This document shows positions 48,497 to 53,796 of a stretch of DNA of 64,000 nucleotides, piece after piece. The position numbers and the translations under genes were made by a program. The notes below the pieces were generated by a model. The model did not search any database, was not told where the DNA came from, and saw only the letters and a list, made by a program, of their open reading frames with translations. The stretch is taken from the NCBI GenBank assembly GCA_008802785.1, contig VUYT01000001.1:434001-498000 (forward strand). Reading direction: 5' to 3'. The DNA is from Symmetrospora coprosmae. Taxonomy: Eukaryota > Basidiomycota > Cystobasidiomycetes > Symmetrosporaceae. Each line of letters begins with the position of its first letter. The first letter of the stretch is position 1.

Positions 48497-51400
48497 ATGG
48501 CGCAGCAGACGAGACCTGGAGAAGGGACAACGTCGCCATTCGCGACACAATCCAGCCCATCACTATCACCAGGAGTGAGCGTGCCACAGGTCTCCCCTTC
48601 TGGCCAGAGTGCCACAACGAGCGGGAGCAGCGAGAGTCCGAGCGGCAGCGGCGGGTCTGGCAATACAACCACGCCGGGCGTGTTCGGGCGTCTCCTCAAC
48701 ACATTGCGCCCCCCGCTCAACAGGACATACACAGCGCAGTCAGGGAGCATACGCAAGAGCGGCAAAGCGACCAAGGGCAAACGCAGAAACAGCTCGCCGC
48801 CCAGACCCGGGTCGGCCAACTCGGGCTCGATGCAGTCCGGCAGAGACAGCCCGCAAGCATCAATGCCAGTGCGGTCGTTGAGCGCCGTTCAGGGCGAGAC
48901 GTCAGTGAATGACATCGCTTCAATATCGGACAAAGCTTCGGTGCTGTCGGCAGGTTCTGCGAGTGCACAAGGCTCCCGCTCGCCCGCTGCGTTGGGTCGA
49001 GGCCCGCCCGGTGCCTTCCCAGCGTCGTCGCCATATGCGTCGCCGCTCGCTCCCGATGCGATTATACAGCAGAGTCTGGAGCCGCATTCGACACCAGCAT
49101 CGCCCGCAGTCTCCCCGTCGACATCGCCACGCCTACCTACGACATCAGGAGCGACCCTCTCTGTTCAGCGGCCGCAACCGGAAAGACGGCAGTCGAGCGG
49201 GAAGCGCCTCGCGGCTGCCCTTACCAAGCCGCTATTCCGCCGGTCTAGTAGTCAGACAGGAGGGAGTGGGTCACCAGCCGCGCCAAACCTGTCTTCCAGT
49301 GCGGCCAGCGTCGCATCAGGCTCCATCTCTGGGAGTGGCCGGGGCACTGCAAGCCGGTCGAGACCAGCATCTACGCTTGGTTCCGCCGTGCAGGACGCCT
49401 CTTCCGTCCAGAACGCCAGCAGTGCCTCCATCAATACGCGCCGCCCCTGGACGTCCAGCTCGGCCCGGTCCGCATACAGCCTCGGCGCGCAGTCAACCCC
49501 CTCGCCCGGCACCGAGACGCTCAACCAGCAGCCAGGCTTTCCTTCGCCATACTTCGCGCAAGCCACGCCCACGAATGCATATCCCAACCCTTTCTCACCG
49601 TCAGTCGACTGCGTGCAAGCACTCACCGTCCTCCTCTCGCAGCAAATCACCGCGACTCTAGCGCAACTCGTCCCTGTCAATCTCTTCACCGCGGCTAGTG
49701 GTCTGTCTCCACAAGCTCTCGCTCTAGGTAGTCTGCCAGGGCTCAGCAGTGTGTCGGTGGCGACAAGCGCCTTGTCAGATGCCACGACCTCGTCCTCCGC
49801 GCACCACACAGCAGCTTCATCTTCAAACGCTGCTTCATCGTCACAGTGGAATTCCTACTCCACTGGCGGTACGACAGTAGTTGGGTTCGGTAGCTTCGGC
49901 TTCATTTCGAACGAGCAGCTCGCTGCATCCTCGCTGAGCCTTCCGACAACGAGCGTCGGCACCGTCTGGCGGACAGCGCGGGCTTACGAGTGGCTTGGCG
50001 AGAACGGAGCCGCTCTCAACGCGCTAGCAGCCTCGCGCAGCAACCCGATGACACCCCGGCCCATGTCGGGCAGGCCTTCGCTCGACGGTCAGCTGGCAAA
50101 GCAGGATGCTCCAGACGCGGCAGAACGGCAAGAGTCGGTCTTTGACTTCTCGGCGCTCGTGCAGTCGGTGCTAGACGTTATGGCGTCGACAGCTGCAGAC
50201 GCGGGCGTCGAGCTCACGTTCTACCACGGCTCGCGCAAGGCAGACCCGGTTGCGCGCCGCGGACCTGCCGAAAAACAGGCAGCCAGTCGGGCGCAGCCTT
50301 CCTCCCCTAGCCAGAGGCAGACATACCAGTATGATATGCAGGACTCGCAGGAGGCGTTCGTCAAAGGCGATGAGCGCGGGCTGGGCATCGGGCTCGTGGC
50401 TCTTCTAAAGCAGGTCATCGCCGACAGCAGACATGGGGCGAGCATACAGGTCGGACTGTCCTTCGCTCTGACACTCCCGCCCCGAGGCGACCGCCAGCAA
50501 CCAGATCGTGATAACGAAGATGAGGACGCGGACGACACAGAGGAGGATAGCACGCCACTCGGCACGTACCTCTGCACCGTCGAGGTCGTGCACAAGTTTG
50601 CCCTGCCACCATCACCGAGTCTGGCGCAGCCTCCGTCTGCCACTCAGGCTGCGGGCCCTGCACCAGCCAAGGCATCTTCTCCTGGCTCTTTGGATCCGAC
50701 AGTATCTGCTGCTCTGTTGCAGTTCCTCCGCCTCTCCTTCGTCACCCTTCCTCCGAGAAGTGACTCGCAAGCGTACAAGATCACTTGTACACTTCCTCAG
50801 GCTCTTCACCCCTTGCGCAGATCTCCGAGCGCTGACCCGTCGTATAGGCGGCGTGGCTCTGTGTCACAGAGCAAGGAGCCAAGTGTAAGCCATATCGCTT
50901 TCAATTGGGGCAAAAAAGCTTGTCAAGCGTGTCGCTGACCACTTTGGAATTTTCGACCTTGCTTTGAGCAGATGCAGGAGCTCGTCCGCTTTGCCGAGAC
51001 CTCCTTGCGAGGCAAAAAGGTCGCCTTCCACGCGCAGGAACAAAACGACTTCGCCCAGCTCATCTCGTACCATCTTTCACACTGGGGTATGGAGTGCAGC
51101 CACGTCGCGATACTGCAGGACGAGGACAGCGAGTCCGGGCCGCCCTGGGATGGCGGAGCTGCGCCACGGACGCGCTTGTCCGGCCTGCGTCCGGACGAGA
51201 GGGCACACCTTGGGAGGTACGACTCTGGCTTTGGTGGGAGCGACGGGCAAAGCCCGCCAACCATGCCCAGCCCGTCTATCAACCTGAGTGCAGATCAGAC
51301 AGCCCAGAGTCAGGCAGTTCCTTCGAGCTACGGATCCAGAACGGGCGGTTCAGATCACTCGCATCCATCGTCAGCCGTCACATCACCGCCTCTCGACCCG

Positions 51401-53796
51401 ACTCTAAGCTTCATAATTGTCGATGACGACGTTCCGACGCTGAAGCGGCAGCTCATCTCGGTCAGGAACAATGTCCCTACCGTCCAGTTGCAGAACGCGT
51501 TGCTCGCCAAGCGCCCTCAGCTGCAATCTCGCCGTACGCGGTCGAGTCAGGCTGTTCAGCGCGTGCCGCAGACTACCGTCTCTATCATTCACTTCACTTC
51601 TCTGGCCAACTACCGTCAAATCAGAGAGCTCGTACATGCTACGCTCAAGACTGCCAGTCCGATGTTCCCGCTGCCGGAGGTGCTAGTCATCCCGAAGCCA
51701 GTCGGGCCTAGACGGCTCCTCGCCACTCTTTACAACGCTGTCCGACGGCCCACCCTTGACCCGTCTTTCGCGCCGATCGCAACATCGCCCTCCTCTCCAG
51801 GCGGTCAATACTTCTTTGCTGGTGGTCGGCCAAGTCCCGCTCCGTCAAGTCACCTCAATAACGAGTTTGACGTTGCTGCAGGGCAGGCGGTGGCCGCACA
51901 ACGCCTGCAGCAGCAGTCGCAGCCACACTATCAGTACTATCCGCAACCGCAGCATCCGGATGCAGCCAGCTTGTCAGCGGCAGCCTCGCACATTTCGGGT
52001 CCGAAGACGCCGCCTGTGCCCGGTCAACAGCTGTCCAATCCACCCTCTCCAGCCTCGCCCGATGCGCTCGAGTACTTCTCGAGATCCGCCGCCGAGCTCG
52101 GCTCCAACGCGAGCCAGGGCATCATCATTCAGAGTCCGGACGGCAGGCCTACCGGTCTTTTCTTCCAGCCGCGTGCAGCGAGTCTGTACGATCGAGCTGA
52201 GAGCCTGCGCATGGCCCGGGGATCGGTCAGTGATGGAGACCGTACGAGCACGGGATCTCACCCACGAGGTTCGCCAGCGCTCAGTGGGGGTTCGGGGCTG
52301 TCGGCAGGTGGGCAAGAGCTGCCATCCATCGTCATCCCGGACAACATGGATTACGCAACGGGTGTGCGCAATCTTGCGCTCAACTCGCCTCCTGGCGGCA
52401 CGACGCCCACGCCAGATGTGCCAAAGCCCGAGGCGGCGAAAACCGCAGAGTACGTTGGCACGCCCAACTCCGATCTCGCAGAATCACTACCGATGCAGCT
52501 GGAGCCCGCTCGGCCCGCTGAGGTGCCCTCGCCTGCGTCGTCAAACTTCCCCAACGACGACGGCAGCTCCTCGAGCGGCAGCTTGGCGCAGCAGACCGAG
52601 ATTGGTCTCGCTCGTGTCGAGAGCCGCGCCGAGAGCGCCGTACCGGAGGCAGCTACAGGTCCGCAGAAGCCCCTCTCGCAGCCCTCGTCTCCTCGACTCT
52701 CTGCGTCGCCCAAGCCTGCCTTGCAGAGGCAGCCGACAGCCGCTCCCAGTCCAACTGTCAGCAAGATATCGCCAAGTTTGTCTGGGGCTGCAGAGTCGGC
52801 CGCAAAGGCCGGTGCAGGTGCCCCTACCAAAGCGGGTAGCTCGCCAAGCGCTCCGCTTGCCCGCGTCAAAGCCGAGAGGAAGTCGAGCTCACGCGGTGAG
52901 AAGATCAAGAAGACACCGTCGAGGCGACCGACTGGGACGCTTGTGCCTCCGATCAATGTGCTTATTGTCGAAGGTGCGTACCGCGCGGCTGCTTCGTCCA
53001 GTGCCGACCCAGTGACTGATCAGTCTGAATTGCTCACTTGGCAGACAACCCAATCAACCAGATCATTCTGTCGACGTTCCTGAAGCGCAAAGGCATCAAG
53101 TACAGCGTCGCCAACAACGGGCAAGAAGCGGTCGATTCCTGGAAAGGCGGCAATTTCCACCTGGTACTGATGGACATTCAGCTTCCCGTCAAGGACGGCA
53201 TTGAAGCGACGCAAGAGATCCGTGCGATGGAGCGTGCGGGGAACACCCAAGGCTTTGTCAGCACGCCGTCGGCGACGCCGGGCAGCGAGCTGAGCAATCC
53301 CATCTCTCCGCCCGTCTCTGTGGTGACATCGCCGTACGAGCTGCCCGTCATTATAGTCGCGCTCACGGCGTCGTCGCTGCAGAGCGACCGAGTCAATGCG
53401 CTCGCCGCGGGGTGCAACGATTTCCTCACCAAGCCCGTCTCGCTGCAGTGGCTCAATCAGAAGCTGGTCGAGTGGGGCTCGATGGCCTACTTGTCTGGGT
53501 TCTCGTCTAAGCGCCGCACAACCATCAGCGGCTCCGTCAGCCCCCTCTCGCCTCAGCCGGGCCAGCCGTCCATCAAAGGCAAGCAGAAGGACAAGGAGGC
53601 GCTCGTGCAGAAGGAGCTCAAGGCCGTCAAGCAGGAGACGGAGGAGAAGAAGGAGGAGAAGAAGGAGCTGATTGAGGAGCGCAAGGAGGTCGCAGAGGAA
53701 CAAGTCGAGGACGCGCAGGATGCCGCCAAGGAGGCGGAACTCGTCGAGGAGATCAAGGACGGAGAGACAACTCTGCCCATCGCCGGGGATGCCTAG
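48497..53796 (+). CDS. ssk1: Ssk1-type response regulator of the stress MAP kinase pathway, with kinase-like N-terminal remnants
   Basis: Three exons (48497-50884, 50972-52973, 53045-53796) give 1,713 residues. The C-terminal receiver (~1456-1612) is intact: acidic site in NVLIVEDNPINQIIL, phospho-acceptor Asp in LVLMDIQLPVKDGIEATQEI, Thr in IIVALTASSLQ, and Lys in NDFLTKPVSL. DNPINQIILSTFLKRKGIKY is the Ssk1/Mcs4 signature. Ssk1 receives phosphate from the Ypd1 phosphorelay and, unphosphorylated, activates the MAP3K of the HOG/Sty1 cascade. Upstream, residues ~549-660 resemble a histidine-kinase ATPase domain (FDFSALVQSVLDVMASTAAD, VKGDERGLGIGLVALLKQVI) without its Asn box. Residues ~805-1045 resemble a second receiver (SLRGKKVAF, SFIIVDDDVP, IIHFTSL, VIPKPVG) lacking the acidic pair. 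The first ~370 residues are Ser-rich and disordered; a Lys/Glu coiled coil ends the protein. Confidence 0.9.

Follow-up and report, generated by a model that had tools for sequence, protein, structure and literature searches.

Ssk1 is the switch point of the HOG stress pathway, and its N-terminal region is listed as being of unknown function in a 2021 survey (Bourret, PMC8510515). What this region is, and where it comes from, is the question raised by a gene in a 64,000-nucleotide stretch of Symmetrospora coprosmae DNA (assembly GCA_008802785.1, contig VUYT01000001.1, positions 434,001 to 498,000 of the forward strand), called the window from here on. The gene occupies 48497-53796 of the window on the + strand, as do all of its features given below, and open reading frames and splice joints give it three exons and a product of 1713 residues. 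An initial annotation, made from the letters alone, had read the N-terminal region as the remains of a hybrid histidine kinase, with an ATPase-like remnant and a pseudo-receiver ahead of the true receiver. We start from three observations, namely the domain order, the loss of catalytic residues and the distribution of both in a set of 232 sequences, and our answer is that Ssk1 is probably a former tandem-receiver hybrid kinase whose dead core may have been kept as a dimer scaffold.

Kinase-like core and receiver-like domain

The catalytic residues of a histidine kinase were counted in 74 aligned Ssk1 sequences, with clade labels assigned from the sequence names. At the H-box the His is found in none of the 69 sequences that have a letter there (the other 5, the window among them, are gaps), and the Glu after this place is retained in 60 of the 74. 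The DxGxG motif is present in none of the 74 aligned stretches; the Gly of the GD motif is kept in 71 of 74 and its Asp in 44 of 74, and the second Asn of the N-box is kept in 8 of 74, all of them Mucoromycota (8 of the 11 of that group). Three of the 74 (window included) show a GxG[LMIV][GSA] pattern, which by its position is not at the G2 place. It may be noted that the control for the G1 and G2 boxes in kinase loci (27 of 27) is circular, since the same motifs had picked that set. Judged by these residues, the Ssk1 family would not pass as active histidine kinases at the phospho-His or at the N, G1 and G2 boxes. Of the kinase remnants that we saw, the N-box of Mucoromycota is the least decayed, reading NLLRN or NLVRN in the CA-like domain of P0070 and P0080.

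The relation to kinases was examined by HHalign against 27 bacterial kinase loci from four genomes (26 distinct by look, L046 and L068 being seemingly one gene); 5 loci came from a genome scan for the bacterial relatives of a single hybrid kinase, and one of these is a match of 46 residues. The 74-row Ssk1 DHp-CA profile aligned with the 27 loci in its CA part only, over 145 columns with probability 91.5 and an E-value of 8.8e-7. The score of 51.9 compares with a maximum of 23.8 when the columns of the kinase profile were shuffled 200 times, and with 17.9 for the reversed profile. An 11-row Ssk1 profile aligned from the H-box to the end of the CA domain (probability 82, E-value 1.1e-5), with FIKNMTTELRN placed on FLANVSHELRT at the H-box. 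The register GD..R..Q.L.NL..NA that the initial annotation had read for the CA part is the same as the HHalign register of the family.

In the window protein the predicted DHp, CA and receiver-like fold is assigned by homology with relatives. Identities are given against P0001, the one protein returned by a search with residues 350-1060 of the window protein. DHp-like helix 1 (residues ~369-400, 49601..49696) is placed by alignment with relatives only, contains no phospho-His and is the weakest part of the assignment; the match to the DHp-CA profile (A2) stops short of it, and the window is a gap at the His column. DHp-like helix 2 (residues ~471-512, 49907..50032) is placed by the A2 match at 471-578 and by conservation, with 79% identity to P0001 as against 43% in the neighbouring stretches. 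It is followed by a CA-like (HATPase) domain in which the N, G1 and G2 boxes are missing (residues ~545-770, 50129..50806), placed by the A2 profile and the HHalign comparison of the family, with inserts at residues 579-612, 661-686 and 706-730. The window, which is not an A2 row, matches this profile with an overall E-value of 4.6e-19. The two matching pieces (471-578 and 621-702) cover helix 2 and the first CA part and exclude helix 1 and the CA end; past residue ~702, near which the aligned window stretch ends, the CA-like domain was judged by eye. Against P0001 the core pieces of the CA-like domain are 52-61% identical and the inserts 13-23% (48-79% for the core pieces overall), a pattern of identities that drifting loops and a folded core under selection would give. 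The N-box equivalent VKGDERGLGIGLVALLKQVIADSR (residues 622-645, 50360..50431, located by the family's HHalign register) reads A and Q at the two places that are N in kinases, and the Asn box is gone, as had been claimed. The segment of residues ~549-660 that had been taken as running from dimerization to ATPase is CA-like, but it starts inside the CA domain, and the DHp-like helices are upstream of it (49601-50032). All the motifs quoted in the initial annotation were found at the residues given or within a few of them (FDFSALVQSV 549, VKGDERGLG 622, SLRGKKVAF 807, SFIIVDDDVP 942, IIHFTSL 1001 and VIPKPVG 1035).

The fold was examined on a single AlphaFold2 model of a relative from Basidiobolus ranarum (P0067), built from a 77-row alignment (mean pLDDT 70.1, pTM 0.56). 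Stretches with a pLDDT below 50 are 1-52, 179-184, 578-594, 714-925, 1008-1027 and 1080-1094, and most ten-residue blocks of the ordered parts have values of 80-97. The ordered N-terminal half consists of helices resembling transmembrane (TM) helices (52-159), a long helix (187-268) that passes through the H-box region at 246-256, and helices at 290-329; then follow a CA-like domain of strands and helices (335-484), a first receiver-like domain, REC1 (529-701), and the working receiver, REC2 (932-1085). A Foldseek search of the PDB with this model gave as first match the Caulobacter kinase ShkA (6qrj, E-value 4.1e-14, 840 columns, TM by target 0.42, root-mean-square deviation 19.9), which is a match domain by domain and not of the whole arrangement because the deviation is high. 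The yeast Ssk1 receiver with Ypd1 came second and the GacS kinase (7z8n, 1.8e-9) third, and RetS (~1e-8), HK853 (~1e-7) and phytochrome A were found amid plain receivers in the first 50 rows. VIA-align is uninformative on the other domains because all of its 50 rows fall within residues 925-1091, that is, in the working receiver only. The model thus predicts for the Ssk1 family a histidine-kinase fold, with a DHp hairpin and then a Bergerat-type CA domain. The Basidiobolus orthologue gave confident DHp, CA and receiver-like folds, and the relatives examined showed neither a lack of HATPase or receiver matches nor a disordered or unrelated fold.

REC1 of the window protein (residues 797-1068, 50972..51787, with an insert at 847-934) is placed by the A3 profile, with its fold taken from the P0067 model. 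The full-length match to A3 has an E-value of 3.6e-71, which is partly by construction as the window is 1 of the 12 A3 rows. The model has the receiver plan that the initial annotation had read from the letters (beta1-alpha1-beta2, beta3, beta4, beta5), with alpha2 replaced by a disordered insert and otherwise the beta-alpha order of a receiver. The Asp, Ser/Thr and Lys that had been noted are also in place: Asp947 at the phospho-acceptor place at the end of beta3 (51422..51424) is Asp in 104 of 104 sequences, Thr1005 at the end of beta4 (51596..51598) is Thr in 88, Ala in 12, Ser in 3 and a gap in 1, and Lys1038 after beta5 (51695..51697) is Lys in 103 with one gap. In the P0067 model D606 ends beta3 (602-606), T653 ends beta4 and K685 follows beta5, a placement that matches D981, T1039 and K1061 of its working receiver. 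As for the paired acids, which had been described as replaced, this holds for the first (Asp in 3 of the 104) but not fully for the second, which is Glu in 30 and Asp in 3 and is still Glu in the window, where the pair reads Q-E. We had also considered FIIIDDD as beta1 with the acid pair, which was dropped as the model puts it at beta3 after beta1-alpha1-beta2. From beta3 to alpha5 the window is 79% identical to P0001, among the best conserved parts outside the working receiver, and the insert is 48% identical over its aligned part.

By profile, REC1 with its inserts cut matches the first post-CA receivers of 11 kinases (E-value 2.6e-5, probability 75, score 34.9) over 113 columns from beta1 to alpha5, the middle being poorly in register; the maximum of its shuffles is 18.6 and none of 100 reaches the score. 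Uncut REC1 against the same receivers gives an E-value of 1.9e-4 over 37 columns, again with none of 100 shuffles. The profile-profile check that had been proposed is thus significant for the CA domain, and for REC1 only with this position-matched template. With the receiver fold in the relative's model and the acid pair mostly lost, REC1 is predicted to be a pseudo-receiver.

Distribution in fungi and membrane segments

When relatives were sought with a two-row alignment in condensed form, 2983 proteins were returned at an E-value of 1e-10, of which the best 120 were examined; among the matches listed are many Agaricomycetes, along with Mucoromycota, Glomeromycotina, Basidiobolus, Calcarisporiella and metagenome proteins without a name. 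For a six-row query, made shorter so as to favour proteins below about 800 residues, the best 120 of 3672 were examined, and the named ones among the matches listed are mostly Ascomycota. The counting set of 232 sequences includes the window, and many of its members are fragments or mis-spliced, so that the counts for A2 and A3 are lower bounds: at least 86 of the 232 match A2 (DHp-CA), at least 117 match A3 (receiver-like), and 83 carry a different, ascomycete-type N-terminal block. None of these 83 also carries A2 or A3, and four proteins longer than 450 residues have neither A2, A3 nor the block. The order DHp-CA-REC1-REC2 is common to Ssk1 of Basidiomycota, Mucoromycota, Glomeromycotina and Basidiobolus. 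The dead core was found in none of the 25 named ascomycete Ssk1 proteins (Ssk1 being also called SskA there) that were scanned singly, one of them a 270-residue piece. We had expected to see REC1 in ascomycete Ssk1, and this is rejected by the same 25 proteins and by the lack of overlap in the set of 232. The suggestion that the remnants may be general in this lineage was therefore too narrow on one side, as they reach Mucoromycota, Glomeromycotina and Basidiobolus, and too wide on the other, as they were found in 0 of the 25 ascomycete proteins and in 0 of the 83 with the ascomycete-type block. The ascomycete-type block is about 95 residues long, with the pattern VWVKRP..DDLVDDVRDMILRKYANSLGR..PDI.IRI (P0131, P0134, P0226 and 80 more), and had no Pfam match in the three proteins scanned.

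Upstream of the DHp part we applied a Kyte-Doolittle scan, a simple hydrophobicity scan and not a trained predictor. At least one hydrophobic segment was found in 7 of 7 Glomeromycotina, 6 of 9 Mucoromycota, P0067 and P0076 of Calcarisporiella; two of the three negative Mucoromycota, and P0046 of Basidiobolus, have fewer than 30 upstream residues. None of the other 66 A2-positive proteins has an upstream segment (34 have 60 or more upstream residues, and a few are Mucoromycota or Basidiobolus fragments), and the scan gave no TM segment in the window Ssk1. Up to three strongly hydrophobic N-terminal segments are seen in Ssk1 of early-branching fungi (P0067, P0074, P0070 and others), as would be expected of a membrane protein. 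The order TM-DHp-CA-REC-REC of a tandem-receiver hybrid kinase by descent is predicted by the P0067 model, and the hydrophobic segments of the other early lineages would agree with it.

Gene model, working receiver and linker

Exon 1 (48497..50884) encodes residues 1-796, from its open reading frame and a splice joint that keeps the frame, and is followed by intron 1 (50885..50971, 87 bases, GT..AG, frame kept). Exon 2 (50972..52973) encodes residues 797-1463 and the first base of codon 1464; intron 2 (52974..53044, 71 bases, GT..AG) divides the codon of the receiver's second acid. Both splice places are supported by relatives that apparently read through there, P0001 at intron 1 and P0002 at intron 2. 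The predicted protein of P0001 stops inside or just past intron 2 and loses its receiver, and P0002 has extra residues there; such mispredictions at intron 2 can make these proteins look receiver-less or broken in databases. The first part of the working receiver, with beta1 and the acid pair (52949..52973, the receiver starting from residue 1458 of the spliced protein), is in exon 2, and exon 3 (53045..53796, identified by Pfam Response_reg) holds the rest of it, up to ~53490, and a charged tail.

Response_reg (E-value 2.4e-19) in the C-terminal receiver is the sole Pfam domain of the window Ssk1, and open reading frames over exons 1 and 2 gave no family at E-values up to 10. The working receiver has all five catalytic residues (NVLIVEDN, LVLMDIQ, ALTA and LTKPV in the spliced protein) and, by eye, a long Pro/Ser-rich insertion between alpha3 and beta4 at residues ~1530-1561, such an insertion being a feature of Ssk1 receivers (Bourret 2021, PMC8510515). 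By these receiver residues and this insertion the window protein is assigned as the Ssk1 response regulator; SSK1 is also the name of several annotated homologues, the closest named ones among the matches listed being basidiomycetes. Over the 20 Mb genome, exon-wise matches above the cut-off number 23 for HATPase_c, 22 for Response_reg and one for HPt, and the last may be a Ypd1-like phosphotransfer partner of the window Ssk1.

Between REC1 and the working receiver there is a conserved linker block with an SPDG motif (residues 1141-1215, 52004..52228), 84% identical to P0001, which is perhaps a docking motif. The block ends in SQGIIIQSPDGRPTGLFFQPRAASLYDRAESLRM, and a like pattern, EYFS..A..LG.SPSSG..I.SPDG.P.GIFF.P, is seen in the consensus of 77 relatives.

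Origin and role of the dead core

The fold of the relative, the CA profile match and the match of REC1 to position-matched receivers strongly support the descent from a two-receiver hybrid kinase that the initial annotation had put forward. The ancestor would have had a membrane region, DHp, CA, receiver 1 and receiver 2, in that order. Autophosphorylation would then have been lost with the His, N, G1 and G2 boxes, and receiver 1 would have lost most of its metal-binding acids, with receiver 2 remaining the working target of the Ypd1 phosphorelay. What the core would be kept for is its shape: the DHp-like helices would pair two chains constitutively, receiver 1 would pack against the CA-like domain, and two working receivers would thus be presented next to each other to the MAP kinase kinase kinase Ssk2/22 regardless of their phosphorylation state. 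Later the membrane segments would have gone in Basidiomycota, and in Ascomycota another N-terminal block would have taken the place of the core. That the dead domains serve as regulatory or dimerization modules is something we infer, as the initial annotation did, and for the dimer scaffold in particular we put the chances at about even. In yeast the homodimerization of Ssk1 is reported to be phosphorylation-independent, and the 2021 survey counts its self-binding among the key unresolved issues (Bourret, PMC8510515).

Several points weigh against this account. REC1 compared with 22 general hybrid-kinase receivers gave P 0.068, with 11 of 200 shuffles equal, and no significance whole or condensed, local or global; the template, made from 11 of the 27 kinases, was picked after this failure, and whether these have several receivers was judged by length and motif. 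HMMER found no PDB chain for the DHp-CA profile at E-values up to 1 and for REC1 a dynein-complex chain at 0.85 only. In Pfam, HATPase_c matched 1 of 11 members (E-value 0.15), Response_reg matched REC1 in 0 of 12 at E-values up to 1, and eight whole Ssk1 proteins gave no kinase family. The sole model is of the relative P0067 and not of the window protein, and for REC1 alone the Foldseek rows carry no ranges and those of VIA-align cover the working receiver. The hydrophobicity scan is unspecific, flagging also the soluble core of some proteins (P0051, P0053, P0065 and P0111). As regards the scaffold, the 2021 survey assigns the dimer interface to the receiver itself (PMC8510515), and the evidence for a dimer comes from the ascomycete S. 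cerevisiae. No core is present in the ascomycete proteins that were scanned, so the need for a dimer would be met there by something else.

A possible but rather doubtful alternative to the scaffold is that the dead core senses a ligand or a protein: receiver 1 or, in early fungi, the membrane region would bind a partner or a small molecule and so control whether the working receiver can reach Ypd1 or Ssk2, in the way that cyclic di-GMP (c-di-GMP) acts in ShkA. The 79% identity of REC1 from beta3 to alpha5, with its invariant Asp and near-invariant Lys, would fit this, as would the pseudo-receivers that bind c-di-GMP at the same place in ShkA (PMC7010744) and quinones in CikA (PMC12632262). 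Against it, the conservation is equal elsewhere (79% in the DHp-like helix, 84% in the SPDG linker), and the candidate ligand and pocket are hypothetical, taken by analogy. Nor is c-di-GMP known to be used by fungi. With the same reserve we consider, tentatively, that Ssk1 of early-branching fungi may be, instead of a soluble response regulator, a membrane receptor without kinase activity, the core and membrane region of which would respond to turgor or to the state of the membrane and control the working receiver directly, in parallel with the Sln1-Ypd1 relay. If so, the soluble yeast Ssk1 would be a late stripped form, and Ssk1 dimerization would have separate answers in ascomycetes and in other fungi.

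It is unlikely that an originally single-receiver Ssk1 gained the CA-like and receiver-like domains separately. Ascomycete-type Ssk1 does join another N-terminal block to the working receiver, so the receiver is combinable, and the protein-search matches listed include no active sister kinase of Ssk1; but the full TM, DHp, CA, REC, REC order is predicted by the Basidiobolus model and, for Glomeromycotina and Mucoromycota, from their sequences, and it is a known hybrid-kinase order (PMC7010744 and PMC10779265). A fungus-specific fold with chance kinase-like motifs, to which the lack of HMMER or Pfam detection and the template-dependent significance of REC1 would point, is very improbable given a CA match above all 200 shuffles with its boxes in register, a confident P0067 model with kinases among its top structural matches, and a D, T and K of REC1 at the beta3 end, beta4 end and past beta5 as in REC2.

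The domain order of a tandem-receiver hybrid kinase, which we prefer as the origin of Ssk1, has counterparts in known systems. ShkA, the top structural match of the P0067 model, shares the order DHp-CA-REC1(pseudo)-REC2 (PMC7010744) but is an active soluble kinase whose REC1 binds c-di-GMP, whereas in Ssk1 the His and the boxes for ATP binding are missing. Plant cytokinin receptors of the AHK4 type have a membrane region, HisKA, HATPase, pseudo-receiver and receiver (PMC10779265), and differ in being active kinases with a hormone-binding sensor module. A pseudo-receiver between CA and receiver is found also in GacS/BarA and RcsC, that of RcsC being recognized only by structure (PMC7010744). 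DivL of Alphaproteobacteria is described as a pseudo-histidine kinase in regulatory use. Ascomycota Ssk1 (Mcs4) has a C-terminal working receiver of the same type and differs by the block VWVKRP..DDLVDDVRDMILRKYANSLGR in place of the dead kinase core. Unlike Ssk1, GacS/BarA and RcsC are active kinases, and DivL is not known to carry a fused working receiver. None of the open-licence papers listed by our literature searches was seen to describe Ssk1 as a dead kinase; in the accessible part of a 2025 review of pseudo-receivers (PMC12632262) most fungal cases are in Rim15 and the word Ssk1 is absent.

If the N-terminal region is a dead hybrid kinase, its role and the self-binding of Ssk1 become testable, and a worn-down sensor-kinase core could explain the pairing of Ssk1 that switches on the stress response. 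A new pseudo-receiver family would also be added. It would then be explained where a main class of fungal response regulators came from, with the model yeasts as the exception.

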